Of a stretch of 58,363 nucleotides of DNA, positions 4,112-43,470 are shown piece by piece. This DNA is from Bacteroidales bacterium (lineage in GTDB: Bacteria > Bacteroidota > Bacteroidia > Bacteroidales > Bacteroidaceae): NCBI GenBank assembly GCA_030528885.1, contig JAUMXY010000013.1, positions 1-58,363 of the forward strand, written 5' to 3'. A program made the position numbers and the translations under genes. Numbering within the stretch: the first letter of the stretch is position 1; each line of letters begins with the position of its first letter. The notes beneath the pieces were generated by a model, which was not told the DNA's origin, did no database searches, and worked only from the letters and a program-made list of their open reading frames with translations.

Positions 4112-4203
4112 CCTTCATCACAATTACGTCAGCGAGCGCATCGTAATTACGTCACACCCTTCATCGCAATCACGTCAGCGAGCGCATCAGAGACGAACCA
4201 AAC
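4112..4203. repeat. 23-bp tandem array, CGTAATTACG family, locus 1
   Basis: Units start at 4112, 4135, 4158 and 4181, exactly 23 bp apart. Units 1 and 3 are nearly identical: 4111-4142 and 4157-4188 differ at 2 of 32 positions. Unit 2 carries the palindrome CGTAATTACG (4142-4151). The last unit has decayed. The stretch 4136-4158 matches 34766-34788 at 21 of 23 positions. The array lies in the divergent gap upstream of mutA, about 150 bases before its promoter. Confidence 0.8.
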
Positions 4204-4329
4204 CCTGAGGCAACCGAAGGATTTTCGACCGAGAATTGCTTAGGCTATGATGCAGAGTGAGCAGAACCTCCGCCACAAGCACGGCAGATAAGAAGTTTTT
4301 TACTTTTTTACTTTTTTCCTTTATACTTT

Positions 4330-4360
4330 TTTCTTATATAAATAAAAATGCGTATCTTTG
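4330..4360 (+). promoter_or_regulatory. Promoter of mutAB
   Basis: TTTC (4330-4333), 19 bases, then TATCTTTG (4353-4360). The predicted leader of about 70 bases shows no cobalamin riboswitch, although the enzyme needs adenosylcobalamin. Confidence 0.7.
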
Positions 4361-4438
4361 TGTGTTTTTACACGCAGGTGCGTGCATCTGCACACATTTT
4401 CAACGTGCAACACTATCAACAACTTTAATTAATATTTT

Positions 4439-6286
4439 ATGGCTAACATGAAAGAAAAGCTCTTTTCGGAGTTTCAAGCGCCCACCACTCAAGAGTGGCT
4501 GGACAAAATCCAAGTGGATTTGAAAGGCGCCGACTTCCAGAAGAGAATGGTCTGGAAGACCAATGAAGGCTTTGACGTACAGCCTTTCTATCGCCGCGAG
4601 GACCTCGCTGACCTCAAGGCTGTGAATTCTCTCCCTGGAGAATTTCCTTTTGTACGCGGCAACAAGAAAGACAACAACCTTTGGTTCGTCCGTCAGGAAA
4701 TCAACGTTGAATGTCCAAAGGCAGCCAACGAGAAGGCGCTCGACATTCTGAACAAGGGCGTTGACTCAATCGGCTTCAAGGTTCCAGGAAAGAACATCAG
4801 CAAGGAATTCATCGCAGAGCTGCTGAACGGCATCATGCCACAGTATGTCGAGCTGAACTTCAAGACTTGCCAGCGCCACAGCGTTGAATTGGCAAAGATT
4901 CTCGTTGAGTACTTCAAGGAAAAGAACTATCCATTGGCAGACCTCAAAGGCTCCATCAACTTCGACCCAATTTCAAAGATTCTCTGCAAGGGAAGCGACA
5001 CGTCTGCACTCGTGGCAGAAGGAAAGACGCTCATCGAAGCGCTTGCAGAACTTCCTGGATACAAGTGCATCTGCGTCAACTCTGTATCACTCAACAACGC
5101 AGGCGCATACATATACCAAGAACTCGGCTATGCGCTGGCTTGGGGTGCTGAGTACCTGAACATGCTGACAGAAGCAGGTGTTGAGGCAACAGAAGCAGCA
5201 AAACGCATCAAGTTCAACATGGGCGTTTCCGACAACTACTTCATGGAGATTGCAAAATTCCGTGCCGCACGCATGCTCTGGGCACAGATTGTAAAGCAGT
5301 ACGAGCCTAAGTGCGACTGCGCTTGCAAGATGCATGTATGCGCCATTACATCTGAATACAACCAGACAATCTTCGACTCATACGTAAATCTGCTCCGTTC
5401 ACAGACAGAAGCAATGTCTGCAGCTATCGCAAACGTTGACTCTATCATTGTCACTCCATTCGACAAGCCATACGAGACTCCAACAGACTTTGCAGAGCGC
5501 ATCGCACGCAACCAGCAGCTGCTCCTCAAGGAAGAGGCACACTTCGACAAGCTCGTCGACGTAGCAGGCGGCTCATACACAATCGAGCATCTGACAGACG
5601 CCATCGCAAAGGAAGGCTGGAAGCTGTTCCTCGCTGTTGAAAACGCAGGCGGTTTCCTCGCAGAAGTACTCAACGGAAACATACAGAACGCTGTCAACGC
5701 TTCTAACGACAAGCGCCATGCTGACGCAGCTAAGCGCAAGGAGTTCATCCTCGGCACAAACCAGTTCCCTAACTTCACAGAGGTTTCAGAGGGCAAGGAA
5801 CCTGTTCAGTGTACTTGCTCTTGTGGCACAACAGGCGACATCGCAACACTCAACAAGGCACGCCTTGCTTCAGAGTTCGAGTCACTCCGCCTCTCTACTG
5901 AGAAAGCAGCAAAGCAACCTGTAGCATTCATGCTCACCATCGGCAACCTCGCCATGCGTCAAGCACGTGCTCAGTTCTCATGCAACTTCCTCGCTGCAGC
6001 AGGTTACAAAGTCATCGACAACCTTGGATTCAAAACAGTAGAAGAAGGTGTGGACGCAGCTCTCGCAGCAAATGCAGACATCGTTGTCATCTGCTCTTCA
6101 GACGACGAGTACGCAGAATACGCAATCCCAGCATTCAAGTACCTGAACGGCCGCGCTATGTACGTAGTAGCAGGCGCTCCAGCATGCGCAGAAGACCTCA
6201 AGGCTGCAGGCATCGAGAACTTCATCAACGTTAAGTCAAACCAGCTCAGCACTCTCAAAGAGTACAATGCTAAACTCGGTATCTGA
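4439..6286 (+). CDS. mutA: Methylmalonyl-CoA mutase small subunit
   Basis: The 615-residue beta (small) subunit of the heterodimeric adenosylcobalamin-dependent methylmalonyl-CoA mutase, which interconverts succinyl-CoA and (R)-methylmalonyl-CoA in the succinate-to-propionate route. It has the same TIM-barrel plus flavodoxin-like layout as MutB (visible similarity such as [17 protein letters not shown] against [17 protein letters not shown]), but its C-terminal domain lacks the DxHxxG cobalt-ligand motif, as expected for the non-catalytic partner. The first Met (MANMKEK) is taken as start; Met4 is an alternative. It is followed after 2 bases by mutB, so the pair is probably translationally coupled. 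Cys-rich stretches ([17 protein letters not shown]) are visible and I cannot assign them a role. Confidence 0.95.
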
Positions 6287-6288
6287 TT

Positions 6289-8454
6289 ATGGCAAGAAAA
6301 GATTTTAACAACATAGACATTTACGCTGGCATTCAAGAGAAGAACGGCCAGCAGTGGCAGAAAGAGAATGGCATTTCCGCAAACTGGAGAACTCCTGAGC
6401 AGATAGACATTCAGCCTGTTTATACAAAAGAAGACCTTGAAGGAATGGAGCACCTCGACTTTGCAGCAGGTATCCCTCCATATCTCCGTGGTCCTTATTC
6501 AATGATGTACCCATTCCGTCCTTGGACAATTCGTCAGTACGCAGGTTTCTCTACAGCAGAGGAGTCTAACGCGTTCTATCGCCGCAACCTGGCATCTGGA
6601 CAGAAGGGACTCTCCGTCGCATTCGACCTTCCGACTCATCGCGGATACGACCCAGACAACGAACGCGTAGTAGGCGATGTCGGCAAGGCAGGTGTATCTA
6701 TCTGTTCTCTCGAGAACATGAAGACTCTCTTCGCAGGCATTCCATTGAACAAAATGTCTGTATCCATGACAATGAACGGAGGCGTTCTCCCAATCCTTGC
6801 ATTCTACATCAATGCAGGTCTTGAGCAGGGAGCACAGCTCGAAGAGATGGCCGGTACAATCCAGAACGACATTCTCAAAGAATTCATGGTGCGTAACACA
6901 TACATCTACCCACCAGCATTCTCTATGAAGATTATCGCTGACATCTTCGAGTTCACTTCACAGAAGATGCCTAAGTTCAACTCCATCTCCATCTCAGGTT
7001 ACCACATGCAGGAAGCAGGTGCAACAGCAGACATCGAGCTGGCTTACACACTTGCCGATGGTATGGACTATCTGCGCACAGGTGTAGATGCAGGTATTGA
7101 CGTTGACGCATTCGCTCCACGCCTCTCATTCTTCTGGGCAATCGGCATGAACCACTTCATGGAAATCGCCAAGATGCGCGCCGGCCGTCTGCTGTGGGCA
7201 AAGATAGTAAAGAGCTTTGGCGCAAAGAATCCAAAGTCACTTGCACTCCGTACTCACTCACAGACATCAGGATGGTCTCTCACAGAGCAAGACCCATTCA
7301 ATAACGTTGGTCGTACATGTATCGAAGCAATGGCAGCCGTACTGGGTCACACTCAGTCACTCCATACCAACGCTCTCGACGAGGCTATCGCTCTGCCAAC
7401 AGACTTCTCTGCCCGCATCGCCCGCAACACTCAGATTTACATCCAGAATGAGACAAAGGTTTGCAAGCAGATTGACCCATGGGCAGGTTCTTACTACGTT
7501 GAGACACTCACCAACGAACTCGTGCAGAAAGCATGGGAGCACATTCAGGAAATCGAGAAGCTCGGCGGTATGGCAAAAGCCATCGAGACAGGTCTGCCAA
7601 AGATGAGAATCGAAGAAGCCGCTGCCCGCACTCAAGCTCGCATCGACTCCGGCACTCAGACAATCGTCGGCACAAACAAATATCGTCTCGACCACGAAGA
7701 TCCACTTGACATCCTTGAAATCGACAACACAGCAGTTCGCCTCCAGCAGGAAGCTGCGCTCAAGGAACTCAAGGCAAACCGTGACGAGGCTGCCTGCAAG
7801 GCTGCGCTTGCTGAAATCACCAAGTGCGTTCAAGAATTCCAAGACGGAAAGAAGAGCGAAAACAACCTGCTCGACCTCGCAGTCAAGGCTGCAGGCTTGC
7901 GTTGTACACTTGGAGAAATCTCTGACGCATGCGAAGCAGTTGTAGGTCGTTACAAAGCAATCATCAGAACAATTAGCAACGTGTACAGTTCAGAATCCAA
8001 GAGCGACAAGGCCTTCGAAGAGGCTTGCGCTGCAACTGAGAAATTTGCTCAGGCAAACGGCCGCCGCCCACGCATCATGATAGCAAAGATGGGACAGGAC
8101 GGACACGACCGTGGTGCTAAAGTATGTGCAACTGGTTATGCTGACTGCGGCATGGACGTGGACATGGGCCCACTCTTCCAAACTCCAGCAGAAGCTGCTC
8201 GCCAGGCTGTTGAGAACGACGTTGACGTGCTCGGCGTTTCTTCTCTCGCAGCAGGACACAAGACGCTCATTCCACAAGTAATCGAAGAGCTGAAGAAACT
8301 CGGCCGCGAGGACATCCTCATCACAGCCGGCGGTGTCATCCCAGCACAAGACTACGACTTCCTCTACAAAGCAGGTGTTGCAGCAATCTTCGGCCCTGGT
8401 ACTTCCGTAGCTTACTCATGCCGCGAGGTCATGAAGATTCTCAACGAAGAATAA
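6289..8454 (+). CDS. mutB: Methylmalonyl-CoA mutase large subunit
   Basis: The catalytic alpha subunit (721 residues; family about 710-730). The N-terminal TIM barrel binds the CoA ester, and the C-terminal Rossmann-like domain (about 590-721) binds B12. The cobalt-coordinating His606 sits in DGHDRGAKV (DxHxxG), followed by the conserved [12 protein letters not shown] and TAGGVIP segments that wrap the corrinoid tail. With MutA it forms the cytosolic heterodimer. Genes for methylmalonyl-CoA epimerase, decarboxylase subunits or the MeaB chaperone are not in the window, so they must be elsewhere. A strong terminator follows 20 bases after the stop, closing a two-gene operon. Confidence 0.97.
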
Positions 8455-8474
8455 AGCTTACACATTATTTATAG

Positions 8475-8511
8475 ATAAGGGGCTGCACATAACGCAGCCC
8501 CTTATTCTTTA
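8475..8511 (+). terminator. Intrinsic terminator of mutAB
   Basis: A 12-bp stem (8475-8486 with 8494-8505), a 7-base loop, and then a T-rich tail. It closes the mutAB operon. Confidence 0.85.
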
Positions 8512-8566
8512 TTTACCCTCTTGTTTTGGCCACAATCATAGCATTTGAAATGCTATATCCCAAAAG

Positions 8567-8628
8567 CGTACCCCTCGGGTCCGCCATGGCGGACCCGAGG
8601 GGTACGGTATATCGGACCCGAGGGGTAC
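8567..8628. repeat. 23-bp array of the GTACCCCTCGGGTCC element, locus 1
   Basis: Three perfect copies of the 15-mer GTACCCCTCGGGTCC: one forward (8568-8582) and two inverted (8591-8605, 8614-8628), with starts exactly 23 bp apart and 8-bp spacers. The first two form a perfect 40-bp palindrome (8567-8606) centred on CCATGG. The flank GGTATAT after the second copy recurs at locus 2 (17707-17729 matches 8591-8613 at 22 of 23 positions). It lies in the convergent gap between mutB and the DUF3078 gene. Confidence 0.9.
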
Positions 8629-8693
8629 ACTTTAGAAAACCGAAAAGACGCACCATCCAAACGACTCTATATTATCACAGTCCACATCAGCAT

Positions 8694-8737
8694 AGCATAG
8701 TGCCCCGCATCGACGAAACGATGCGGGGCACTATGCT
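8694..8737. terminator. Perfect 19-bp hairpin between convergent genes
   Basis: 8694-8712 pairs perfectly with 8719-8737 around the loop ACGAAA. It lies 50 bases past the stop of the minus-strand DUF3078 gene and has no T run on either side. It could be a bidirectional terminator or a further member of the palindromic elements in this gap. Confidence 0.65.
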
Positions 8738-8786
8738 GTAATAAGGTATGCCAACATCCACTAACAGGGTGCTGGCAGGTTTCTCA

Positions 8787-10148
8787 TCAGAAACCATAAG
8801 AAAGTCCAAGCTTGAAGTATTCCTTAAACTGAAAATATCCGAGCGTACTATCATAATACCGCTTGTTGCGGTTATCATCAAAACGCCAGATGGTATATAC
8901 ATCGCATGAAATATACTTGTTAAATTGAAAAGAAAAGGTATTCTCAAATTCCGATTCAACATACTCGTGAGTCGTAAAGAAATAGAAGCGAGACTTCCAC
9001 GTGAGATTTTTCACAATAGTCATTTTGGTATTAACTTCCACTCTAGAACCAAAGTCTTGCTGGAAATCTTTACCTCTCATATTATAGGAGTTATGAATCG
9101 TTTCTTCCTTGTCTCCTATGTAACGAACCTTATAAGTGAGTGGCAGAATGGCTGCAGAGAACGTGTTGCCATTCTTCAAAGATGGCTTAAAGTCCACACC
9201 AAGAGAAACAAACACGTCAAGAGGCGCTAAGAAATTAGAAAATGTACGACGGTCATTGCTTCTATAACTCGGCAAAAACTGAGTGGTTGCCTCAGTTGAC
9301 AAAGCGTAGTTCCAATTCTTAATTGCCCGAATACCTAACTTTGAGAAAAGACGGATTTTATCATTGTTGGTCAAGTAGCGGTGGATTGAATCCGATGAAG
9401 CCGTAACGAAGCCAAGTCGCATGTCCAATGTGTTTTCCCATTGTATGCCTTTTTGATTGTCATATCTTGCCTCAAGCACCAACTGGGTGAAAAGGTCAAC
9501 ATTGTTATTGCCTCCCCTCCACCATTTCTCGGATACATAGTTTTGCAGAAACTGGAACTTGAATTGTCCTTTGGTCGTCCAGAAATTTGGCTTTTCAATT
9601 TGCAGCTCCACTTCTACATCATCTACAATTTCCGCCACATCTTTTATTTCTTCCGCCTTCTTATAAATCGCTTCTAAATCTTCAGGCTTTGCATTTGCTA
9701 CAGGCTCCGACGAAACCAGCACTTCTGACTCTATCTGCGAATCAGAGTATCGAAACGCTGTTGGAGCTCCCACATAGGCATTCACCAAAGCCTTATCGAT
9801 TAAAGTGTTGATGGAATTACGCTCGTCCATAGCCCTAGAAGCCACCTCCTTCGCTCCCTCTGTCGGCAACTCGTAATCCAGCTCGAAGTTTTTCTTCAGC
9901 GCTGAACTATAATAGACACCAGGGCCAAGCAATTTGAACATGTACGGCGATACCACCACATCAACAGAATCCTGCATCATTTTTTTCTCTATGCCCCTCC
10001 CCTGCAAAAGTTCTTTCTTGTAACGCTCTACAATAGCCGCAGCCTTTTGATTATACGACGACAAGTCGCTTGAATGCTGCGCTTTGGAAGGCGAACCGCA
10101 AACACAAAGAGCTGTCAATAAAACACCATATAATATATGTCTGTCCAT
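8787..10148 (-). CDS. DUF3078 outer-membrane-type protein
   Basis: A 453-residue exported protein with an N-terminal signal peptide (about 1-23, ending SPSKAQ). The middle and C-terminus carry the DUF3078 pattern: WTTKGQFKFQFLQNYVSEKWW, then GGNNNVDLFTQL, followed by alternating amphipathic strands and a C-terminal aromatic (LGLSYGF). This suggests an outer-membrane beta-barrel of about the last 270 residues preceded by a periplasmic segment with an acidic stretch (about 160-190). The family is Bacteroidota-specific and has no established function that I know of. Monocistronic; on the minus strand a TAAATTTG -7 box lies 23 bases upstream (10171-10178). Confidence 0.8.
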   Translation of the reverse strand: MDRHILYGVLLTALCVCGSPSKAQHSSDLSSYNQKAAAIVERYKKELLQGRGIEKKMMQDSVDVVVSPYMFKLLGPGVYYSSALKKNFELDYELPTEGAKEVASRAMDERNSINTLIDKALVNAYVGAPTAFRYSDSQIESEVLVSSEPVANAKPEDLEAIYKKAEEIKDVAEIVDDVEVELQIEKPNFWTTKGQFKFQFLQNYVSEKWWRGGNNNVDLFTQLVLEARYDNQKGIQWENTLDMRLGFVTASSDSIHRYLTNNDKIRLFSKLGIRAIKNWNYALSTEATTQFLPSYRSNDRRTFSNFLAPLDVFVSLGVDFKPSLKNGNTFSAAILPLTYKVRYIGDKEETIHNSYNMRGKDFQQDFGSRVEVNTKMTIVKNLTWKSRFYFFTTHEYVESEFENTFSFQFNKYISCDVYTIWRFDDNRNKRYYDSTLGYFQFKEYFKLGLSYGF

Positions 10149-10229
10149 ATCCTCTTTAACTATTTTTTTGCAAATTTAGGGGTTTTTACCGATTATTCAT
10201 AACAATAAAGAAATTTTCACGGATAAAAA

Positions 10230-10261
10230 TTTCCAGTTTTCAAGAAAAAGAACTAAATTTG
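10230..10261 (+). promoter_or_regulatory. Promoter of the small basic protein gene
   Basis: TTTC (10230-10233), 20 bases, TAAATTTG (10254-10261). The leader is about 78 bases. It probably also drives rng, which has no recognisable promoter of its own. Confidence 0.65.
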
Positions 10262-10345
10262 CACTCCGAATGAGTGTATGGCATACATTCATCCTAACCA
10301 AAGAAACAATAAACTAAATTATAAACAACTAAATTTTCAACGATT

Positions 10346-10435
10346 ATGCCAAACGGTAAAAAGAAGAAAAGACACAAGATCTCTACTCACAAGCGTAAGA
10401 AGAGACTGAGAAAGAATCGTCATAAGAGCAAGTAA
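10346..10435 (+). CDS. 29-residue basic protein, bS22/mS38 (AURKAIP1/COX24)-like
   Basis: A tiny, extremely basic protein starting MPNGKKKKRHKI and ending KNRHKSK; about 60 percent of residues are Lys, Arg or His. The pattern KKKRHK...THKRKKRLRKNR matches the AURKAIP1/COX24 domain of mitochondrial mS38 and the small mycobacterial ribosomal protein bS22, so it is probably a constituent of the small ribosomal subunit. This family match is from memory of the motif. It sits upstream of RNase G with a hairpin between them. The start is the only Met in frame near the promoter, and the length is typical of the family. Confidence 0.75.
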   Translation: MPNGKKKKRHKISTHKRKKRLRKNRHKSK

Positions 10436-10475
10436 AGTTGAGAAACTTTTTTATGCCTTATGAGCGGCAGAACAA

Positions 10476-10537
10476 AGAGCATACCCTACAGATGAGAGTC
10501 CCTGCTAAAGGGTGCACAGGACGGTATGCTCTTTTTC
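10476..10537 (+). terminator. Hairpin with T tail between the small protein gene and rng
   Basis: AGAGCATACC (10476-10485) pairs with GGTATGCTCT (10523-10532), followed by TTTTCT. The 37-base interior can fold further (CCCT and AGGG). As rng shows no promoter between here and its start at 10575, this is best read as a partial terminator or attenuator. Confidence 0.7.
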
Positions 10538-10574
10538 TGTACAAACATAACAACATAATAAAAGGTAAGCAAGA

Positions 10575-17400: not shown

Positions 17401-17861
17401 ACGCAACGAGTTCATGACGGGCTGTCTATAGACCGCGTTGAGGTTAGACTTGACTACGCATAGGCATGAAAACGATGAGAGAATAAGACTGCAATAAGGG
17501 TTGACGAATACTTTCAATTGTGTTTTTCTTCTGTTTTCCACTGCAAAGATACAACATTTTTTCACCAAACCCATCACCTTTTTCTAATCGATTCAGTTTG
17601 AGCGCGATGCAAATCATCTCTTCTTCCTGATGACTCAAAATGCTTATTGCCGCCCAAATCGTACCCCTCGGGTCCGATGCACCGTACCCCTCGGGTCCAC
17701 TATGGCGGACCCGAGGGGTACGGTATATTAAGGCATGTCTTTTGGGGTATCTCGTTTGTAAAGTTTTTTTGAAGCACCTCTCCGCTTCAGTCAAAATATT
17801 CTGTATGGAAATTGATGTCAGAACATCACTGGAAGTCACGTTTTCTTAATGAAACAACTTC
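17401..17861. other. Convergent intergenic gap with repeat array
   Basis: No convincing gene is seen in 461 bases. Contents are the GTACCCCTCGGGTCC array (17661-17721) and a lone minus-strand TATCTTTG (17544-17551) without a -33 element at the right distance. Open frames crossing the array contain its translation and are treated as chance. Confidence 0.6.
17661..17721. repeat. 23-bp array of the GTACCCCTCGGGTCC element, locus 2
   Basis: Three perfect 15-mers: forward at 17661-17675 and 17684-17698, inverted at 17707-17721, again with starts exactly 23 bp apart. The last two form an imperfect palindrome. The orientation order (forward, forward, inverted) differs from locus 1 (forward, inverted, inverted), so the two loci are not simple copies of one another. 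It lies between convergent helicase and LysM genes. Confidence 0.9.
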
Positions 17862-28166: not shown

Positions 28167-28270
28167 GATACACCCTCTACCTGAATTTACTCACACCGCC
28201 TATCGAAATTTAGATACACCCTGTACCTAAATTTGCGTACGCCCTGTTCCTATTATTATGGACACGGCCT
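28167..28270. repeat. 23-bp tandem array, ACACCCTGTGCC family, locus 1
   Basis: The anchor ACACC (or ACGCC/ACACG) recurs at 28170, 28193, 28216, 28239 and 28262, always 23 bp apart. Alternate units are most alike: 28167-28190 and 28213-28236 agree at 21 of 24 positions, giving a 46-bp higher-order period. 28237-28269 resembles 43427-43459. It lies downstream of the Fur gene in a convergent gap. Confidence 0.8.
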
Positions 28271-32904: not shown

Positions 32905-33262
32905 CGTCTTTATATAAATATGTATTATTAATCAAGTAGTATTAGAGTGCAAAATTACAAAAGTTTTTCGTTGTTTTAATGATGTTGAAAAAGAAAAATG
33001 ACACAAAAACGCTATTTATGTTAAAAAACACATTTATGAAGCCTCAAACAAATAAAAATAACCTTTATCTTTGTGGCGTTATCCTGAAAATAATCTTTTT
33101 ACCTTAAACTAATACTTATTACTTATATAACGAATAAGACAAAAAGGCATTACATTGTGAAATGTGATGCCTTTATTTTGTACGGCCGCAAACAAAGGAG
33201 CACACAATAAAACGGGCGAGGTGTTCGTTATTGACAATGTTACATTAATACTTTCATATACA
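32905..33262. other. Divergent gap with a promoter-terminator pair
   Basis: It holds the glnS -7 box (minus, 32950-32957), a plus-strand promoter-like TATCTTTG (33066-33073) and a hairpin with U tail (33143-33178) before the beta-helix gene. No coding frame is convincing between them. Confidence 0.6.
33066..33180 (+). ncRNA. Candidate small RNA or terminated leader
   Basis: TATCTTTG (33066-33073) should start transcription near 33080. A stem of 12 bp (33143-33154 with 33163-33174) followed by ATTTTG would end a transcript of about 100 bases. It contains a second small stem (CTTATT/AATAAG). As the beta-helix gene starts only at 33263, this is either a stand-alone RNA or an attenuated leader. 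No -33 element is seen. Confidence 0.4.
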
Positions 33263-34708
33263 ATGAGACAATTTACCTTTTCACATATATCTGCAAGCCT
33301 ATTGTCTGGTTGCTTTCTTTTCGCCTGCTTATTTTCATCATGCAGCGATGACGAACAGTTTACTGCCGACAAAACTGCCACGCTGGAATTCAGCCAAGAC
33401 ACAATTTCTTTCGATACAGTCTTTGCAAACATAACCACCCCCACAGAGCGGCTTTATGTGTACAACAATCATAGCAAAGGCGTACGCATAGCCAACGTGA
33501 AGCTTGAAAGAGGCGGCACGTCTGGGTTTCTTATCAATGTGGACGGACAGAACGGGACGACAATCAACGACATACAAGTACTGAAGGAAGACAGCATCTT
33601 TGTTTTTATAAAGTTGAATGCCCCCTTGCAAGCATCGACCAAGCCACAAAACATCTCAGACGCCATCATCTTCACACTTGAAAGCGGCGTGCAGCAACGA
33701 GTGGAAATAGAGGCATGCAGCATGAATGCTGACAAGCTCAAAGGGAAGGTGCTGGAAGGAAACCACATCTTTACGTCAGACGACACCCCTCGAATCATCT
33801 ATGACAGTCTTGTCGTAGATGAACACGCATCGTTGTGTGTGAAAGAAGGGACCACACTATACTTCCACAACGGAGCTAGTCTGATTGTACGTGGAGAACT
33901 GAAGCTGGAAGGTACGCTGAAAAGGCCTGTAACCATTCGAGGCGACCGTTTGGACAACATGTTTGACTATCTGCCTTACGACCGTCTTGAAAACCAATGG
34001 GGAGGAATTCTTCTGCAACCAACATGCAAGGGATGCACTATAAATCATGCAGACATCCATAGCGGTAACTTTGGAATCATATGCGACAGCATCGAAGGGA
34101 AACTCGACATAACCAATTCTGTCATACACAATGTTGCTGGATATGGTCTCTACTTAAAAGACTCTGATGCCTTAGTGGCCAACACCCAGATATCCAACGC
34201 AAAGCAGGATTGTGTCAGCATCTATGGTGGAGCGTCAACCTTCTATCATTGCACCATTGCGCAATTCTATCCATGGGATGCCAACAGAGGCAACGGGCTC
34301 TACGTCAGCAACTACATCAACGAGGACGAGCATCTGATTACATCTGCAGATTTCTACAATTGTTTCATCACAGGCTATGCAAATGATGAGGTGTACGGAA
34401 ATCCAGGCGAACAGGAACTGAACCTCAATTTCTATAACTGCGTATTGCTGACTGATGTTAGCGACGAGACCTATTTCCACGACTGCACAGCAGAGTCGGA
34501 AGAACTCTCAACCTACAAAACAAGCAATTTCAAGACTTTGGACACACACGCCTACTATTACGACTTCCGTCTCGACTCACTCAGCACAGCGCGTGAAAAA
34601 GGTTCTTCAGCATATTCGACCCTCTATCCAACAGACATGCAGGGAGTAGTTCGTGGTGAAAAACCTGATGCAGGATGCTACCAATGGCAGCAGGAGGCAT
34701 CACGTTAG
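33263..34708 (+). CDS. Right-handed beta-helix lipoprotein
   Basis: A 481-residue surface or periplasmic lipoprotein. Start at 33263 (MRQFTFSHIS) because it begins a lipoprotein signal ending FACLFSSC (Cys about 25). After an N-terminal beta-sandwich-like region (EFSQDTISFDTVFAN, about 40-180) come repeated short strands with Gly/Asn turns (GNFGIICDSIEG, GYGLYLKDSDALVANTQISNA), typical of parallel beta-helices of the pectate-lyase fold. Catalytic residues for polysaccharide lysis are not recognisable, so it may be structural or carbohydrate-binding. The final domain contains GVVRGEKPDAGCYQW, a motif often seen at the end of such Bacteroidota proteins. Confidence 0.82.
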   Translation: MRQFTFSHISASLLSGCFLFACLFSSCSDDEQFTADKTATLEFSQDTISFDTVFANITTPTERLYVYNNHSKGVRIANVKLERGGTSGFLINVDGQNGTTINDIQVLKEDSIFVFIKLNAPLQASTKPQNISDAIIFTLESGVQQRVEIEACSMNADKLKGKVLEGNHIFTSDDTPRIIYDSLVVDEHASLCVKEGTTLYFHNGASLIVRGELKLEGTLKRPVTIRGDRLDNMFDYLPYDRLENQWGGILLQPTCKGCTINHADIHSGNFGIICDSIEGKLDITNSVIHNVAGYGLYLKDSDALVANTQISNAKQDCVSIYGGASTFYHCTIAQFYPWDANRGNGLYVSNYINEDEHLITSADFYNCFITGYANDEVYGNPGEQELNLNFYNCVLLTDVSDETYFHDCTAESEELSTYKTSNFKTLDTHAYYYDFRLDSLSTAREKGSSAYSTLYPTDMQGVVRGEKPDAGCYQWQQEASR

Positions 34709-34742
34709 CAAAACGCCTCATTCATCCTTCGTTTCTCTCCGA

Positions 34743-34811
34743 TTCCAACGGATTTACGATATACAGCGCAACGTAATTACGACACACCTGTCATCGTAAT
34801 TACGTTGCGCT
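34743..34811. repeat. 23-bp tandem array, CGTAATTACG family, locus 2
   Basis: Units start at 34743, 34766 and 34789, 23 bp apart. The first is diverged (core CAACGGATTTACGA against CAACGTAATTACGA). The second and third form a perfect 17-bp inverted repeat (34766-34782 with 34794-34810) with an 11-base loop, followed by TTTTC, so it may also terminate the beta-helix gene. 34766-34788 matches 4136-4158 at 21 of 23 positions. Confidence 0.85.
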
Positions 34812-34893
34812 TTTCATGACAAGATAGTTCATTCCGTCATTACAAACTTACCCATTCTGCCATCTATTTCACATAGCACAAATCTGCATCCAT

Positions 34894-36776: not shown

Positions 36777-36814
36777 GGTTTACGAAAAAAAATATTGACA
36801 AAAAACAAACAAGC

Positions 36815-36847
36815 CTGTTGATAACTCTCCCAAAACTGTTGATAACT
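36815..36847. promoter_or_regulatory. Two CTGTTGATAACT direct repeats upstream of dnaB
   Basis: The 12-mer CTGTTGATAACT occurs at 36815-36826 and 36836-36847, 21 bp apart, 40-70 bases upstream of the dnaB -33 element. TGTTGATAA differs at one position from the complement of the DnaA box (TGTGNATAA), so DnaA binding is possible but unproven. Confidence 0.4.
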
Positions 36848-36852
36848 TTCAA

Positions 36853-37193
36853 AAACAAGCCGATTTCATCGGAAGATTAACCACGAGAACCAAAAGCACC
36901 CTCCCCAAAAGAAAAAAAACACTCTGATTGAAGTTTTGTACAAAATATGTGATAGTCATATGCTTTTCATGAACACCAACTAGGGAGAATGTTGACAATT
37001 CGATTTGCCAGCAACTTCTTCCCTGAAAAACAAAAATTCACGAAATCCTTAAACGTGTCGATTCTTTGACAGGCACCGCTCTTTTCGGGCTATTTTTAGC
37101 ATCATTTTTCCAAGTTATGCAAACCACAGATAGCATATCGGTGTATGCCACAAAAAGTTTTTAGTTTCATTTTATTAAATAAGTGTATATAAA
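36853..37193. other. A/T-rich gap between dnaB and nqrA
   Basis: Between the dnaB control region and the nqrA promoter there is no credible frame on either strand and no repeat array. It may hold regulatory sites for nqr that I cannot recognise. Confidence 0.5.
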
Positions 37194-37262
37194 TTTCCCC
37201 AATAAATTAAAAAGTCTTAACTTTGTATCGAGTTTAGGCAGTCAGCGGGCGAAAGTCCGTTG
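37194..37262 (+). promoter_or_regulatory. nqr operon promoter and leader hairpin
   Basis: TTTC (37194-37197), 20 bases, TAACTTTG (37218-37225). About 10 bases after the expected start of transcription an 8-bp stem with a GAAA tetraloop forms (37243-37250 with 37255-37262, two or three G-U pairs). The leader is about 85 bases. Confidence 0.7.
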
Positions 37263-37317
37263 GTTGTTTTTAGTTTTCCATATAGAAAAACTTATCATAG
37301 TTAATATAAACAATAAT

Positions 37318-38661
37318 ATGGCGAATGTAATCAAGCTAAAAAAAGGCCTTGACATCAACCTGAAAGGTAAGGCTATAGCCAAAGTTTCAGCAGCCAATGC
37401 ATCTAGGGTTTACGGATTAATTCCTGATGCATTTTGGGGAATGAAGCCAAAAGTTGTAGTTAAAGAAGGTGATGAAGTAAAGGCAGGAGATGCTCTGTTT
37501 GTCAACAAGATGCATCCAGAAATGAAGTTCGTCTCTCCAGTAGCAGGCAAAGTTACGCTTGTCGAAAGAGGTGAACGACGCAAGGTTTTAAGCGTTCAAG
37601 TTGAAGCCGCTGCAGACCAGCAGTATGTTGACTTCGGCAAGAAGCAAGTAGATTCGCTCAATGCAGACCAGGTGAAAGCAGCCCTTCTTGAAAGTGGCTT
37701 GTTTGGTTTCATCATGCAGCGCCCTTATGCAGTCGTTGCAAACCCCAACGATGCGCCTAAAGCCATCTTTATCTCTGCATTCAGCGACATGCCTCTCGCA
37801 GCCGACATCAACATTGTACTGAAGGGGCAGGAGAAAGACTTTCAAACAGGCGTTGACGCATTGGCAAAGATTGCGAAAGTGTACATCGGCATAAAAGCCG
37901 GCTCTATCGTTGCTAATGTCAAGAATGCGACAGTAACCGAGTTCCAAGGAAAATGCCCAGCTGGAAATGTTGGCGTACAAATCAACCACGTCAATCCTAT
38001 CAACAAGGGAGAAGTAGCATGGACGCTTGGCGCAGAAGAAGTTGCGATGATTGGACGCCTGTTCAACGAAGGAAAGTCAATCTTTACTCGCACCATCGCT
38101 ATTGCAGGTTCTGAAATTAAAGAACCACAGTACAAAACCGTACTGATCGGGGCAAAAATTGGCGATATTGTGGCAAACAATGTAAGCACCGATAAGAAGG
38201 TGCGCTTGATTGACGGCAATCCGCTCACTGGCGTAAAGACTGACGAGAATTCCTTCCTTCTCGCCCACTCTACTGAAATCACAGCTATTCCTGAAGGTGA
38301 CGAAGCAAACGAGTTGTTCGGATGGATTGCTCCACGTTTCAACGAATTCTCCACAAGCCGCTCCTACTTCACCTGGCTTCAACCAAAGAACAAGGAGTAT
38401 GTGCTTGACGCACGCGTGAAAGGCGGTCACCGCCACATGATTTTCAGCGGCGAGTACGACTCTGTATTCCCAATGGACATCTATCCAGAGCAGTTGGTGA
38501 AAGCCATTATAGCAGGTGACATCGACCGCATGGAAGCGCTTGGTATTTATGAAGTAGCTCCAGAAGACTTTGCCGTAGCAGAGTTTGTGGACAGCTCTAA
38601 AGTTGAACTTCAGCGCATTGTTCGAGAAGGTCTCGACATGCTGCGTAAAGAAAACGAATAA
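37318..38661 (+). CDS. nqrA: Na+-translocating NADH:quinone reductase subunit A
   Basis: A 447-residue soluble cytoplasmic subunit, the first of the six-gene Na+-NQR operon. Start at 37318 (MANVIKLKKGLDI) because the promoter lies inside the longer frame. The N-terminal segment resembles a barrel-sandwich (biotinyl-like) domain (FVSPVAGKVTLVERGERRKV), followed by Rnf/Nqr-type domains ending in helical NIYPEQLVKAI-like sequence. It docks on NqrB and contributes to ubiquinone/menaquinone chemistry. NqrB follows after 5 bases. Confidence 0.95.
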   Translation: MANVIKLKKGLDINLKGKAIAKVSAANASRVYGLIPDAFWGMKPKVVVKEGDEVKAGDALFVNKMHPEMKFVSPVAGKVTLVERGERRKVLSVQVEAAADQQYVDFGKKQVDSLNADQVKAALLESGLFGFIMQRPYAVVANPNDAPKAIFISAFSDMPLAADINIVLKGQEKDFQTGVDALAKIAKVYIGIKAGSIVANVKNATVTEFQGKCPAGNVGVQINHVNPINKGEVAWTLGAEEVAMIGRLFNEGKSIFTRTIAIAGSEIKEPQYKTVLIGAKIGDIVANNVSTDKKVRLIDGNPLTGVKTDENSFLLAHSTEITAIPEGDEANELFGWIAPRFNEFSTSRSYFTWLQPKNKEYVLDARVKGGHRHMIFSGEYDSVFPMDIYPEQLVKAIIAGDIDRMEALGIYEVAPEDFAVAEFVDSSKVELQRIVREGLDMLRKENE

Positions 38662-38666
38662 GCAAT

Positions 38667-39818
38667 ATGGGACTTAAGAAATTTCTTGACAACTTGAAGC
38701 CAACCTTCTCAGAAGGAGGTAAGCTCAGCGCTTTCGGCTCTCTCTTTGATGCAGCGGAGACATTCTTCTATGTACCCAATGAGACTGCCAAGATGCGTGG
38801 CGCGCAAATTCACGACGCTATTGACTCCAAGCGCTCAATCTTTTTTGTAGTAATTGCTCTGATTCCTGCTATACTCTTCGGAATGTATAACATTGGTCTT
38901 CAGCACTACGCTGCAATAGGAGAAGAATCAACATTGCTGTGCAACTTCCTTTATGGTCTTGCCGTAATGCTTCCAAAGATTGTGGTAAGCTATGCTGTAG
39001 GTCTTGGCATTGAAATTGCTGTAGCTCAATGGAAAAAGGAAGAAGTGCATGAAGGTTTCTTCGTAACAGGTATCCTTATTCCACTCATCGTTCCAGTAAA
39101 CTGCCCTCTTTGGATTATCGCCATTGCAACTGCATTCTCTGTAATCTTTGCAAAAGAAGTGTTTGGCGGTACTGGTATGAACGTTTTCAATCCTGCTCTC
39201 GTAACACGTGCGTTCCTCTTCTTCGCATATCCAACGATGATGTCAGGAGACAAAGTGTGGGTAAACGGCAATTACATGGATTGTATTAATGGAGCAACAG
39301 TAGACGGTGTTTCTGCAGCGACCCCACTCGGCCAGCTTGCTGCAGGCGAGGCAGTAACTGCTTCTCCTATGGATACAATCATCGGTACAATTCCCGGATC
39401 CATTGGTGAAACCTCCGTCATAGCCATCCTCATTGGTGCAGTTATCCTCATCTGGGCGAACATTGCAAGTTGGAAGATTATCCTTTCCACATTTGCTGGC
39501 GGCGCATTGATGGCTTACCTTCTCCGTTACGATGGTGCGCAGAACTTTGAGTGGTGGGAGCAGCTGACAGTCGGCGGTTTCTGTTTTGGCGCCGTGTTCA
39601 TGGCTACAGACCCTGTTACCTCTCCTCGCACAGAAGGTGGAAAGTGGATTTTTGGTTTCCTCATTGGTGCAATGACCATCATCATTCGTGTGCTCAACCC
39701 TGGTTATCCAGAAGGTATGATGCTCGCAATCCTGCTGATGAACATTTTCGCCCCGCTGTTCGACTACTGCTTTGTACAATCTAATATTAACAAGCGCGCT
39801 AAGCGTGCCGCTAAGTGA
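38667..39818 (+). CDS. nqrB: Na+-NQR subunit B
   Basis: A 383-residue membrane subunit with about ten helices, carrying the main Na+ path, a covalently bound FMN and riboflavin. The flavinylated residue is Thr219 in VSAATPLGQL, corresponding to the SGAT motif Thr236 of Vibrio NqrB; the first residues of the motif are altered (SAAT). A flavin transferase gene (apbE) is not in this window. The DP(V/Y)TSPRT segment and GFCFGAVFMATDP are conserved. Confidence 0.95.
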   Translation: MGLKKFLDNLKPTFSEGGKLSAFGSLFDAAETFFYVPNETAKMRGAQIHDAIDSKRSIFFVVIALIPAILFGMYNIGLQHYAAIGEESTLLCNFLYGLAVMLPKIVVSYAVGLGIEIAVAQWKKEEVHEGFFVTGILIPLIVPVNCPLWIIAIATAFSVIFAKEVFGGTGMNVFNPALVTRAFLFFAYPTMMSGDKVWVNGNYMDCINGATVDGVSAATPLGQLAAGEAVTASPMDTIIGTIPGSIGETSVIAILIGAVILIWANIASWKIILSTFAGGALMAYLLRYDGAQNFEWWEQLTVGGFCFGAVFMATDPVTSPRTEGGKWIFGFLIGAMTIIIRVLNPGYPEGMMLAILLMNIFAPLFDYCFVQSNINKRAKRAAK

Positions 39819-39819
39819 T

Positions 39820-39825
39820 AGGAGG
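39820..39825 (+). promoter_or_regulatory. Perfect Shine-Dalgarno of nqrC
   Basis: AGGAGG, 8 bases before the nqrC ATG, overlapping the end of the nqrB/nqrC spacer. Most genes in this window, including nqrA, nqrB and nqrE, have none. Confidence 0.8.
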
Positions 39826-39833
39826 ATTAAGAA

Positions 39834-40532
39834 ATGGCAAAAATGAACACTAATAGCAATGCATACACAATCATTTATGCATCTGTGATGGTTATTATCG
39901 TAGCATTCCTTCTTGCATTCGTTTCATCGGTTTTGAAGCCAACTCAAGACGCTAACGTAGAACTGGATAAAAAGAGCCAGATTCTTGCAGCTCTCAACAT
40001 TCGCGACGTTGAAGATGTAGCCGCCAAGTATGCTGAAGTTATCAAGAGTGATGCCATCTTTGGCGCAGACGCTTCACAGGGTCCAAAAGTGGAAACTGGT
40101 GGCTTTGCTGTAGCCAACAAGGACATCACAATCGATAACCGCCCTCTTTATATCGCAGAAATTGATGGCGAACCCAAGAAGGTCGTTCCTGTAAAGGGTG
40201 CAGGTCTTTGGGGTGGCCTTTGGGGCTACATTGCTGTTGATGCAGATGGCGAAACAGTTTATGGAACATATTTCTCACATGAGTCAGAGACAGCAGGTCT
40301 TGGCGCACGTATTGCAGAACAATGGTTCCAGGACAGTTTTAGAGGAAAGAAACTCTATGCCGCAGGTGGTGAAGATATTGTGCTTTGTGCCGTTAAGCCA
40401 GGAAAAGAAGGAACCCTTTCACCTGATAATTATGTTGATGGCATCACTGGTGCAACTTTGACAACAGAAGGCGTTAATAACATGATTAAGGAGTGCCTAA
40501 CTCTTTATAAAGACATTTTAACCAACAAATAA
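39834..40532 (+). CDS. nqrC: Na+-NQR subunit C
   Basis: A 232-residue subunit with one N-terminal membrane anchor (about 13-33) and a periplasmic FMN-binding domain. The covalent FMN attaches to Thr208 in DGITGATLTT, matching the S/TGATxT rule. It is preceded by a perfect AGGAGG (39820-39825), 8 bases before the ATG, unusual in this phylum. Confidence 0.95.
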   Translation: MAKMNTNSNAYTIIYASVMVIIVAFLLAFVSSVLKPTQDANVELDKKSQILAALNIRDVEDVAAKYAEVIKSDAIFGADASQGPKVETGGFAVANKDITIDNRPLYIAEIDGEPKKVVPVKGAGLWGGLWGYIAVDADGETVYGTYFSHESETAGLGARIAEQWFQDSFRGKKLYAAGGEDIVLCAVKPGKEGTLSPDNYVDGITGATLTTEGVNNMIKECLTLYKDILTNK

Positions 40533-40538
40533 AGGAGG
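40533..40538 (+). promoter_or_regulatory. Perfect Shine-Dalgarno of nqrD
   Basis: AGGAGG, 8 bases before the nqrD ATG at 40547, starting directly after the nqrC stop codon. Confidence 0.8.
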
Positions 40539-40546
40539 ACAAGAAT

Positions 40547-41179
40547 ATGAGTTTATTTTCAAAAGAGAATGGCGAAGTTTTCATGGGGCCGCTCAACTTG
40601 AACAACCCTGTAACAGTTCAAGTCCTCGGTATTTGCTCAGCCCTCGCTGTTACCTCGCAGCTTAAGCCTGCAATCGTAATGGGATTGTCTGTAACCGTAA
40701 TTACTGCTTTTGCAAACGTGATTATTTCATTGATTCGCAAAACAATTCCAAACCGTATACGTATCATTGTGCAACTCGTTGTTGTGGCTGCTCTTGTTAC
40801 CATAGTAAGCAATGTGCTCAAGGCATATGTTTATGACGTGAGCGTTCAGTTGAGCGTGTACGTTGGACTTATCATTACCAATTGTATTTTGATGGGACGC
40901 CTTGAGGCGTTTGCTATGCAGAATGGTCCATGGGAGAGTTTCCTTGATGGAATCGGAAATGGATTGGGCTACGCTGTCATCCTTGTTATAGTAGGTTTTG
41001 TCCGCGAACTGCTCGGATTCGGCACCATTATGGGATTTCAGGTAATTCCAGACTGCGCATATGTTGAGAATGGTGGCTTATACATCAACAACGGTATGAT
41101 GACAATGCCTGCAATGGCGCTCATCATTGTCGCGTGTGTAATATGGGCGCATCGTGCATATAATAAAAATATTGAGTAA
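40547..41179 (+). CDS. nqrD: Na+-NQR subunit D
   Basis: A 210-residue integral membrane protein with six helices. With NqrE it forms a pseudo-symmetric pair. Cys30 (LGICSALAV) and Cys113 (TNCILMG) are the two ligands it gives to the intramembrane [2Fe-2S] cluster shared with NqrE. The length and motifs are canonical. Confidence 0.95.
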   Translation: MSLFSKENGEVFMGPLNLNNPVTVQVLGICSALAVTSQLKPAIVMGLSVTVITAFANVIISLIRKTIPNRIRIIVQLVVVAALVTIVSNVLKAYVYDVSVQLSVYVGLIITNCILMGRLEAFAMQNGPWESFLDGIGNGLGYAVILVIVGFVRELLGFGTIMGFQVIPDCAYVENGGLYINNGMMTMPAMALIIVACVIWAHRAYNKNIE

Positions 41180-41214
41180 TAAAACATACCTTTTAACGAA
41201 AAAAGAAAAGATTT

Positions 41215-41844
41215 ATGGAACATTTTATTAGTTTGTTTGTCCGTTCTATCTTTGTGGACAACATGATTTTTGCTTTCTTCTTAGGTATGTGCTCATATTT
41301 GGCTGTATCTAAGACAGTAAAGACATCTTTTGGACTTGGTGTGGCTGTAACATTCGTGCTCCTCATCACAGTTCCTGTAGATTATCTGCTTCAGACAAAA
41401 GTTCTTGCAGATGGTGCTCTTGCAGAAGGCGTAGATCTTACATTCCTTGCATTCATCTTGTTTATTGCCGTTATTGCTGGTATTGTGCAACTAGTTGAGA
41501 TGATAGTGGAACGCTTTTCTCCTTCTCTCTATGCTGCACTTGGAATATTCCTTCCATTGATTGCTGTAAACTGTGCCATCATGGGTGCTTCGCTTTTTAT
41601 GCAGCAGCGCATTCAGCTTGATCCTGCAACATCAACCCAGGCTATTTCAAGCATTGGCGATTGTGTTGCATACGCTCTCGGTTCAGGTATCGGCTGGACA
41701 TTGGCTATTGTCGGACTTGCTGCCATACGCGAAAAAATGGCCTATTCTGACGTGCCAAAGCCTCTTCAGGGTCTCGGCATCACGTTTATCATCGTGGGTC
41801 TTATGGCCATGGCATTCATGTGTTTCTCTGGTCTTAAAATCTAA
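41215..41844 (+). CDS. nqrE: Na+-NQR subunit E
   Basis: A 209-residue six-helix partner of NqrD. Cys26 ([10 protein letters not shown]) and Cys120 (VNCAIMG) complete the intramembrane [2Fe-2S] site and have the same numbering as in Vibrio cholerae. The 35-base gap from nqrD has no Shine-Dalgarno sequence. Confidence 0.95.
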
Positions 41845-41861
41845 AAGAAAGGACATAGCAA

Positions 41862-43136
41862 ATGGATATTACATTTATTTTATATAGTATTGGAGTGTTT
41901 TTGGCAATTGTACTTGTACTTGTCATCATTCTCCTCGTTGCTAAGAAGTACCTTTCTCCAAGCGGTAATGTTACTATTACCATCAACGGAAAGGACAAGC
42001 TTGAAGTTGAGCAAGGCTCAAGCCTTCTCTCTACCCTTGCTGCAAAGGACATCTACCTTCCATCTGCATGTGGTGGAAAAGGTTCATGTGGCCAATGCAA
42101 ATGCCAAGTGGTTTCTGGTGGCGGTGAAATTCTTGATTCAGAAAAAGGGCATTTCACACGCAAGCAAGTGAAAGAAGGCTTCCGTCTTGGATGCCAATGC
42201 AAAGTGAAAGGAGATATCGACATCAAGGTTGACGATTCAGTCATGGGTGTCAAAGAATGGGAATGCACTGTTATCGGCAATAGAAACGTGGCTACCTTCA
42301 TCAAGGAGTACAAGGTTGCTCTGCCTCCAGGCGAGCATATGGACTTCGAACCAGGTTCTTATGCTCAGATTAAGATTCCTGCATTCACTATCGATTACGA
42401 CAAAGACTTCGACAAGAGTCTTATTGGCGACACATATCTTCCAGCTTGGAAGAACTTTGGTCTCTTCAATCTCAAGTGCGTTAATGACACTCCAACCATT
42501 CGCGCTTACTCAATGGCGAATTATCCAGACGAGGGCGACATCATCACGCTCAACGTGCGTATCGCTACACCTCCATTCAAGCCCAAAGAGCAAGGTGGTG
42601 GATTCATGGATGTAAATCCAGGTATCGCTTCATCTTACATCTTCTCGCTCAAGCCAGGCGACAAGGTAATCATGTCAGGTCCTTACGGAGAGTTCCGTCC
42701 ACAGTATGGTACCGGACGCGAGATGATTTGGGTCGGCGGTGGTGCTGGTATGGCTCCTCTTCGTGCACAAATCATGCACATGCTCAAGACTCTCAACACT
42801 CGCGATCGTGAAATGCACTACTTCTATGGCGCACGTGCACTTGAAGAAATTCCATTCCTCGACGATTTCCTTGCGCTTGAGAAGGAATACGACAACTTCC
42901 ACTTCCATCTGGCTCTTGACCGTCCAGATCCCAAAGCGGATGCTGCTGGCATCAAGTACACACCAGGATTCGTTGCTCCTGTCATGGGTGATACTTACCT
43001 CAAGCAGCACGAGAATCCTGAAGATGTTGAGTACTACCTCTGTGGTCCTCCAATGATGGCGAAGACCGTGCTCGACCTGCTCCACTCTCTTGGTGTTGAG
43101 GACGACATGATTCGCTTTGACAACTTTGGTGGATAA
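41862..43136 (+). CDS. nqrF: Na+-NQR subunit F, NADH dehydrogenase
   Basis: The 424-residue electron entry subunit. It has an N-terminal membrane helix (about 5-27), a plant-ferredoxin-type [2Fe-2S] domain with Cys70, Cys76, Cys79 and Cys111, and then FAD-binding (RAYSMANYP) and NAD-binding (GGGAGMAPLRAQI) domains of the ferredoxin-NADP reductase family. It oxidises NADH and passes electrons to the membrane subunits that export Na+. It is the last gene of the operon; two hairpins follow. Confidence 0.96.
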   Translation: MDITFILYSIGVFLAIVLVLVIILLVAKKYLSPSGNVTITINGKDKLEVEQGSSLLSTLAAKDIYLPSACGGKGSCGQCKCQVVSGGGEILDSEKGHFTRKQVKEGFRLGCQCKVKGDIDIKVDDSVMGVKEWECTVIGNRNVATFIKEYKVALPPGEHMDFEPGSYAQIKIPAFTIDYDKDFDKSLIGDTYLPAWKNFGLFNLKCVNDTPTIRAYSMANYPDEGDIITLNVRIATPPFKPKEQGGGFMDVNPGIASSYIFSLKPGDKVIMSGPYGEFRPQYGTGREMIWVGGGAGMAPLRAQIMHMLKTLNTRDREMHYFYGARALEEIPFLDDFLALEKEYDNFHFHLALDRPDPKADAAGIKYTPGFVAPVMGDTYLKQHENPEDVEYYLCGPPMMAKTVLDLLHSLGVEDDMIRFDNFGG

Positions 43137-43172
43137 TCATCAACAGAAGTAGACAAAGAAACTTCATTACAT

Positions 43173-43208
43173 AGGAGAATGCACTGAGTAACCTCGGTGC
43201 ATTCTCCT
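43173..43208 (+). terminator. Long hairpin after nqrF
   Basis: A 16-bp stem (43173-43188 with 43193-43208, one G-U) closed by TAAC, 37 bases after the nqrF stop. The tail is GTTTCAT, a weak T run. Confidence 0.75.
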
Positions 43209-43312
43209 GTTTCATATCCTTGACCACATGTCAGACTGCTTATACATTTTTCGTTGATAGAAGTGCTAACGAAACGTTCACGACACTTGTCAGACACTGA
43301 CACTTCAGCATG

Positions 43313-43352
43313 GAGGCACAGGGCATTTTCACCTTGTGCCTCTTTTCTTTTT
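43313..43352 (+). terminator. Second terminator downstream of nqr
   Basis: GAGGCACA (43313-43320) pairs with TGTGCCTC (43335-43342), followed by TTTTCTTTTT. It is a better intrinsic terminator than the hairpin at 43173 and may be the true end of the nqr transcript. Confidence 0.75.
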
Positions 43353-43382
43353 GAGGAGGGCTGGGCAAGTGGCTGCAAACGC

Positions 43383-43470
43383 ACACCGTGCAGACAAGGT
43401 TTCAGACACCGTGTGCATAATAACACGAACACCCTGTGCCTATTATTTCCGACACGGGCGGCATGTATGA
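43383..43470. repeat. 23-bp tandem array, ACACCCTGTGCC family, locus 2
   Basis: Anchors ACACC at 43383, 43406, 43429 and ACACG at 43452, exactly 23 bp apart. The stretch 43427-43459 is the counterpart of 28237-28269 (about 26 of 33 positions by eye; both read ...CCTATTATT... then GACACGG). It sits between nqrF and the DUF4105 gene. Confidence 0.8.

Follow-up and report, generated by a model that had tools for sequence, protein, structure and literature searches.

Intergenic repeats of unrelated sequence on a common 23-bp pitch in a Bacteroidales genome

Six short tandem arrays lie between genes in a stretch of 58,363 bases (the window, by which we mean the whole of contig C52) from the Bacteroidales genome G000, and they raise the question of why repeats of unrelated sequence should start every 23 bp. 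A first-pass annotation had sorted them into three families of two loci each, sharing that exact period, and had suggested that the spacing is what is selected or what the generating mechanism fixes. The genome has 2,622,338 bases and is 89% complete, its nearest titled relatives by one 615-aa protein being gut assemblies of the Bacteroidaceae/Prevotellaceae (rumen, horse, reindeer, and other). We conclude that the six arrays belong to a genome-wide population of short non-coding elements resembling repetitive extragenic palindromes (REPs), amounting to roughly a hundred module copies. As to what keeps their spacing, the reading we favor, with a probability of roughly 0.45, is that these are mobile modules of a REP-like kind, with putative protein dimers about two helical turns apart setting the pitch.

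One pitch across the genome

All six arrays are present where they had been annotated. When the window was scanned at lags 5 to 120 (40-base windows, at least 25 matches), lag 23 gave six peaks, one at each array (4115, 8566, 17657, 28184, 34742, and 43383), lag 46 gave three, and every remaining lag between zero and two; Tandem Repeats Finder by itself recovered three of the arrays (4111/4116, 8577, and 28168), with units of 23 or 46 bp. Two samples of the genome were then compared, an unselected one of 772,552 bases (the window plus 40 stretches picked regardless of arrays) and an enlarged one of 1,145,004 bases (61 stretches, 44% of G000), which adds 20 stretches picked for the cores of family B described below. 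Triplets, counted as three successive 15-mers alike in the same or inverted orientation with at least 12 of 15 positions matching, fell in the unselected sample at pitch 23 in 30 cases, at 22 in two, and at 50 in one, with none at any other pitch from 16 to 50, and the enlarged sample had 60 at 23, four at 22, and one each at 27 and 50. Three local shuffles of the enlarged sample contained no triplets, and neither did four 50-kb stretches of E. coli K-12 (200 kb, pitches 14–60). Direct autocorrelation of the unselected sample found 44 places at lag 23 against zero to seven at each remaining lag in the range 15–44, and the genome-wide excess that the first-pass annotation had proposed to look for is thus evident. 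The same analysis gave 21 places at lag 69, probably 23-aa coding repeats of the leucine-rich type such as those in loci L089 and L097. A scan of the spacing between inverted arms had no clear peak at 23 (63 cases, with 66 at 21 and 60 at 25), because ordinary hairpins swamp the signal.

The family B core, GTACCCCTCGGGTCC, occurs 264 times (137 + 127) in the 2.62-Mb genome in an ungapped search with up to two mismatches, against two matches (1 + 1) for the reversed pattern, so this family alone goes far beyond the two loci that had been allotted to it. With up to three mismatches, the enlarged sample holds 168 of its units in 64 clusters. Three units are the rule, since 49 of the 55 multi-unit clusters have exactly three, six have two, and none has four. 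If F and R denote the two orientations of the core, the triple-unit clusters read FFR (22), FRR (21), RFF (3), RRF (1), FFF (1), and RRR (1), and the smaller ones FR (4), FF (1), RF (1), or a single unit (9, of which six carry three mismatches); the alternating orders FRF and RFR do not occur among the 64. FFR and FRR are a single module in two orientations. Its 61 bp comprise three quasi-palindromic cores of 15 bp, a direct pair followed by an inverted copy, with centers 23 bp apart and 8-bp spacers between them. The 43 modules of these two orders all measure 61 bp, 42 of them being distinct, and their mean pairwise identity is 0.974 in the cores and 0.582 in the spacers. Measured from the consensus, 219 of 688 spacer letters are changed as against 26 of 1,935 core letters, with lengths unchanged, and the neighbor spacings of the family in the enlarged sample are exactly 23 bp in 104 of 104 cases despite these spacer changes, as expected if spacing is what is selected or fixed. 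The modules end mostly in GTAC and tend to be preceded by AAGC and followed by G[CG]TTT. That all this should be chance or an assembly artefact is a practically negligible possibility, given the empty shuffles, the 264 cores against 2, and the same layout in independent assemblies.

Further families of G000 have GGTGAGACTCTCACC, CGACATCGTCGACGTCG, GGTGTGGGGCACACC, CGTAATTACG, or ACACC-type cores at pitch 23, and one has AGTACCTCCGAAGAGGTACT at pitch 22. Core and spacer lengths trade off, from 15 + 8 bp in family B to 20 + 2 bp in family F, and therefore the spacing of the centers stays at 22–23, so that a common pitch with two different layouts again speaks for the spacing. The cores of the families are unrelated, as had been claimed, but a common design of palindromic cores and inverted units in register runs through many of them. 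Cores are palindromic in most arrays: among the 282 units of 94 intergenic triplets, taken from G000, its congeners, and wider loci, 184 show five or more of seven self-pairs, compared with 0 of 282 when the three units of each array were permuted alike, a lenient control in that the register was partly chosen for palindromy and, being 15 bases wide, misses palindromes of even length.

In the window, family B is represented by a minus-strand module at 8567..8628 (F-R-R on the plus strand, which equals FFR on the minus; cores 8568–8582, 8591–8605, and 8614–8628), in the convergent gap downstream of mutB, and by a plus-strand FFR module at 17661..17721 (cores 17661–17675, 17684–17698, and 17707–17721), in another convergent gap. 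The second sits within a repeated stretch (17493–17741), a repeat of about 250 bp carrying a family B module that is also present in genomes G018, G007, and G020; it includes what we take, from its motif, to be a promoter-like stretch reading leftwards. The other four arrays have no assigned strand. Family A forms an array of three CGTAATTACG-type cores at 4112..4203 (starts 4119, 4142, and 4165; pitch 23, 23), direct repeats only, in the gap upstream of mutA, and another at 34743..34811, the last two units of which make an 18-bp hairpin followed by TTTC, 36 bp past the stop codon of the gene at 33164–34708. The last two arrays had been joined in one family, but what they share is no more than a weak core. 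One, the family C-like array at 28167..28270 in a convergent gap, has four to five decayed units at pitch 23 around ACACCCTGTRCC and matched only itself when the unselected sample was searched with blastn. The other, the family C array at 43383..43470 (four units, pitch 23), is enclosed in a 246-bp repeat (43272..43517) similar to a miniature inverted-repeat transposable element (MITE), which has eight further copies or fragments in the unselected sample (91–96% identical), some of the other copies being joined to a family B-type array. An Rfam scan of the window gave no family at the gathering score.

Place among genes and turnover between species

The arrays are intergenic. Among 69 merged arrays, one lies inside an open reading frame (ORF) of at least 160 aa and four when the cut-off is lowered to 120 aa. 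Among gaps of at least 120 bp, arrays are carried by 17 of the 55 that are convergent, 10 of the 80 divergent, and 23 of the 166 tandem ones (ORF cut-off 160 aa; counts in which 20 of the 61 stretches had been chosen for family B), which makes arrays about two to three times commoner in convergent gaps (P = 0.004 against the rest, 0.004 at 120 aa, and 0.0002 at 200 aa), yet they are present in gaps of all types. The expected intergenic position and convergent enrichment were thus borne out, and a confinement mostly to convergent gaps was not. The neighbors of the listed arrays of families other than B look like housekeeping genes (among them dnaB, a topoisomerase-like protein, and xylose isomerase, named by eye). 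In the gap upstream of mutA (window 3918–4438; L181, L189, L191, and L192), a 21–23-bp array is found in five of the seven genus genomes compared, of family A in G000 and G018 and of other families in G020, G013, and G036, and also in 4 of 80 wider loci retrieved through the comparison of the 615-aa protein. This gap looks like a preferred array site.

Comparison with the congener G018 reveals how gaps change their content. Different families can occupy one gap in two species: the 34743 gap has its family A array in G000 and a family B module in G018, the 43383 gap of G018 is without the 246-bp repeat (present at three other G018 places) and has a GGTGTG-type triplet instead, and the G018 gap matching a family B module of contig C45 has a GATGTG-type triplet. 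At 8567, the module is missing from G018, where AAAAAGC continues into ACTTTA, and G000 has 61 bp between AAAAGC and ACTTTA; this is likely to be one empty site, not certain because the surrounding identity is low, and another triplet lies about 130 bp into the same G018 gap. The 4112 gap has family A at pitch 23, 23 in both genomes, with diverged spacers, and at two near-identical loci of G000 and G018 the modules differ by exactly one 23-bp unit. Among the syntenic gaps that reach 100 bp in each of the two genomes, five had arrays in both, six in neither, and one in G018 only, one further pair having been dropped because it had been fetched for its array. The G018 gaps corresponding to the arrays at 17661 and 28167 are shorter than 100 bp (only about 31 bp for 17661) and array-free. 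Window positions 4304–8486 (mutA-mutB with promoter) are 98% identical to G018 and both flanks about 79–81%, as if, judging from this contrast, mutA-mutB had recently been exchanged.

Congeners largely follow the same pitch, which among the listed cores less than 150 bp apart is 23 in 36 of 37 cases in G020 (one 46), 22 of 25 in G014 (two 46, one 83), and two of three in G007 (one 24). The favored core varies by species, with GTACCCCTCGGGTCC in G000, GTACCCCTCGGCTAC common in G014, and GTACCCCTCGGGTAC in G020, and core counts in 61 genomes gave any match in 17 and 45 or more in six, G002 having 83. Intergenic triplets of the 80 wider loci fall at 22 (13), 21 (5), 33 (3), and 23 (2), with single cases elsewhere, the corresponding figures with coding sequence included being 20 at 22, 10 at 21, and 7 at 18. 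Twenty genomes from other families of the order (263,469 bases) yielded triplets at 18 (1), 21 (1), 22 (1), 23 (2), and 56 (1); four of them were extended to 120 kb, and G054 had two arrays at 23 and G044, G057, and G060 none at 22–23. Outside the window, pitches of 22 or 21 thus occur beside 23. The phenomenon looks bound to a lineage and strongest in the genus of the window.

Some other repeats may be recorded here. Two congeneric loci (L162:13999-14180 and L158:17013-17150) have arrays of direct repeats at 23 bp that exceed three units. At L094:9932-9996 a CGACATCGTCGACGTCG triplet stands between a methylase-like and a RelE/HigB-like gene (named by eye), its flanks being 98–99% identical to G036 on the right and 93% over 172 bp on the left; possibly it was transferred, or is an operator. 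Repeat units spaced by about 115 bp, unrelated to the 23-bp modules, lie in opposite orientation at both ends of contig C15 (L097:1-330 and L097:9930-10240).

What may hold the spacing

Under the reading of mobile modules with a protein-set pitch, a module would be copied to new gaps as a unit by a putative trans-acting enzyme, and each core would be the site of a dimeric, sequence-specific DNA-binding protein. Adjacent dimers would have to sit about two helical turns (22–23 bp) apart, joined by bent linker DNA, to form an active complex, and the different families would be sites for proteins of one structural type with differing specificity. A strong hairpin near gene ends would be a by-product that may protect or end transcripts. 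Protein geometry is favored because the invariant is the spacing of the centers and not the length of loop or core, because the pitch holds for the direct pair also, and because a single core persists across many loci whose spacers have changed. That unrelated modules share a layout suggests that spacing rather than sequence is kept, and cores that are alike across loci, with diverged spacers and a species-specific favorite, are as expected of sequence-specific recognition. In seven of the twelve variable spacer columns, chosen after inspection, the purine/pyrimidine class is kept in 295 of 301 letters and the commonest base in 184, a pattern that linker DNA selected for flexible steps would be expected to show.

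Several observations weigh against this. In the remaining five variable spacer columns the class is kept in 26 to 40 of 43 modules, and mutation bias could be behind part of the purine/pyrimidine pattern. There are arrays made up of direct repeats alone and cores with hardly any palindromy, the wider group uses pitches of 21, 22, and 23 alike, and clusters L136 and L138 have an extra unit, missed by the ungapped search, in which one base is inserted or deleted within the core. Neither a cognate protein near the arrays nor, in the sampled 44% of the genome, a multi-copy transposase family near them was found, although draft assemblies often drop repeated transposons; since no enzyme turned up, a trans-acting mobiliser or binder is something we infer. 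In tandem gaps, 13 of 16 modules point the way transcription runs (P = 0.02), and in several arrays (for example L181, L198, L007, and L196) adjacent inverted partners are exact complements though the core is asymmetric.

Such exact partners in asymmetric cores are more directly explained by a hairpin than by separate dimer sites. A hairpin, of RNA or single-stranded DNA, may itself be selected, the inverted pair making a 15-bp stem with an 8-base loop and the pitch being stem plus loop; it would act as a 3'-end element (terminator or RNA stability) or serve a single-strand transposase as substrate. We regard this reading as somewhat unlikely, if far from negligible. In each of the 42 distinct modules, column 25 pairs with column 60, including two where both positions have changed, and of the four window arrays whose RNA was folded, three gave z about -7 (the two family B arrays on both strands, and 34735–34820, at z -7.3, on the plus strand only). 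Past the hairpin the sequence is rich in T (42, 33, and 32 of 43 modules at +3 to +5), polarity and convergent enrichment agree with a role at gene ends, and G018 carries hairpins of other families in the same gaps. Yet the direct F-F interval is equally exact, the loop need not be of 8 bases, a terminator would not need one 15-bp sequence at dozens of loci, the 4112 array folds ordinarily (z -1.4, plus strand), and the nearness to 3' ends in tandem gaps, where 18 of 27 arrays are nearer the end of the upstream gene, is not significant (P = 0.12). A plain terminator is further weakened by the separate terminator-like sites (8474–8506 and 34924–34899) that adjoin two arrays. Base pairing between the two spacers had no supporting covariation, and flank positions -2/+2 were not significant as a pair (565 of 5,000 permutations). 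Hairpin and protein geometry may both be true.

A dedicated duplication process had been suggested as well. In its pure tandem form it is disfavored because inverted units keep the same register, and what speaks for duplication is the one-unit difference seen once. A mutational version, in which slippage would duplicate a unit of about 22–23 bp and template switching at quasi-palindromes would homogenise and flip units with no selection at all, seems improbable to us. It would suit that exact 23-bp difference between near-identical loci and the likeness of cores whose spacers diverge. But slippage predicts broad unit numbers in place of threes with no fours, one 15-bp core at many unlinked loci requires dispersal, and nothing similar was seen in the E. 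coli stretches.

REP-like elements are usually explained by a REP-associated tyrosine transposase (RAYT). The modules could be ordinary REPINs, that is, inverted REP doublets (as described in PMC3116915), moved by a RAYT of the Y1 type that is missing from the assembly, a very improbable reading and one already weakened. Inverted pairs, conserved stems with variable loops, intergenic position, hundreds of cores, and a species-specific favored core would agree with it, as would the Y1 proteins with atypical flanking structures that PMC6006769 reports from Bacteroidetes. The profile PF01797 (Y1, including RAYT) has some match in 18 of 41 genus genomes, 12 of them over the cut-off. Among the six strong carriers, nonetheless, G000, G002, G014, and G018 have no match, an absence that is firm for G002 only because these genomes are 89, 99, 83, and 77% complete, respectively, and the other two have a match, clear in G020 and weak in G003. 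The fixed-spacer triplets also do not fit, as REPIN triplets are rarer than expected according to the same paper (PMC3116915). The PF01797 profile tests do not support RAYT mobilisation.

The linked protein gene that the first-pass annotation had thought might track the arrays was not found among 839 predicted ORFs of the enlarged sample; compared all against all, these form just two families with at least three members, one of the repeat-rich surface-protein type and one of ORFs overlapping the 246-bp repeat. By eye, no direct repeat that could be a target-site duplication is seen at the module flanks. A phage origin was set aside, the exact core having single matches and no pairs in eight stretches of viral_contigs (the phage collection was not searched), and so was a plasmid origin, a 77-bp query with the 8567 module having no match in the plasmid collection at E 1e-5. 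More tentatively than any of the observations above, we suggest that these may be RAYT-independent tripartite palindromic mobile modules of one Bacteroidales lineage, which keep a two-turn geometry and swap the recognition sequence freely. If this were true, there would be a family of specificity-switching DNA-binding or transposition proteins decorating intergenic sites that could number as many as a hundred or more on each chromosome.

Comparison with known systems

Several protein sites about 22–24 bp apart, some of them quasi-palindromic, are found in the lambda operators OL/OR, in plasmid iterons, and at the ends of Mu, Tn7, and Tn552; in each case the sites form a single locus of one replicon, are not dispersed, and have a cognate protein that is known. 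The closer comparison is with REPs, which the modules resemble in being palindromic, extragenic, and numerous (264 cores), the core of the window's genome being, at 15–17 bp, slightly short for a unit of about 20–60 bp. REPs bear GTAG or CGTC tags (PMC3733652), and the 43 modules, with their GTAC ends, have neither. Like REPINs, the FFR/FRR modules hold an adjacent inverted pair able to form a hairpin, with conserved cores and variable loops, but they differ in being triplets (49 of 55, with doublets in 6), in the invariant 23-bp pitch common to unrelated families, and in the Y1 transposase that was not found in four of the six strong carriers. Bacterial interspersed mosaic elements (BIMEs) are matched in the regular spacing (104/104), but the order is FFR instead of alternating; in PMC2817692, inter-REP segment lengths vary in Stenotrophomonas BIMEs, and several roles are reported for REPs. 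By tag, doublet, and RAYT the modules fall outside the REP/REPIN class, yet they work like its elements.

With MITEs the FFR modules share inverted outer cores, which are terminal inverted repeats. The nearest description is that of BrickBuilt, a MITE of Porphyromonas gingivalis with intergenic 23-nt units, 1 to 22.8 of one repeat, between a leader and a tail and with IS5-type inverted ends (PMC4596501, where strain W83 is noted as having tandem repeats of 41, 23, and 22 nt as well). Both cases have imperfect 23-nt intergenic units in Bacteroidales, within MITE-like elements (compare 43272–43517) and with no internal transposase; here there are mostly three units and many families, the comparison being one of descriptions. 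Searches of a licensed subset of PMC showed nothing closer than BrickBuilt and REP/REPIN. The earlier remark that no element of this kind had been described thus needs qualifying, as REP, REPIN, BIME, and the 23-nt BrickBuilt MITE come close. What we have here is a large, fast-changing REP-like population in genomes without a detected RAYT, with a constraint on geometry that can be measured (104/104), and hence a clean case in which to ask how such elements are copied and by what their spacing is held while the sequence drifts. The orphan BrickBuilt repeats of P. gingivalis, 23 nt long, may also find a broader context here.

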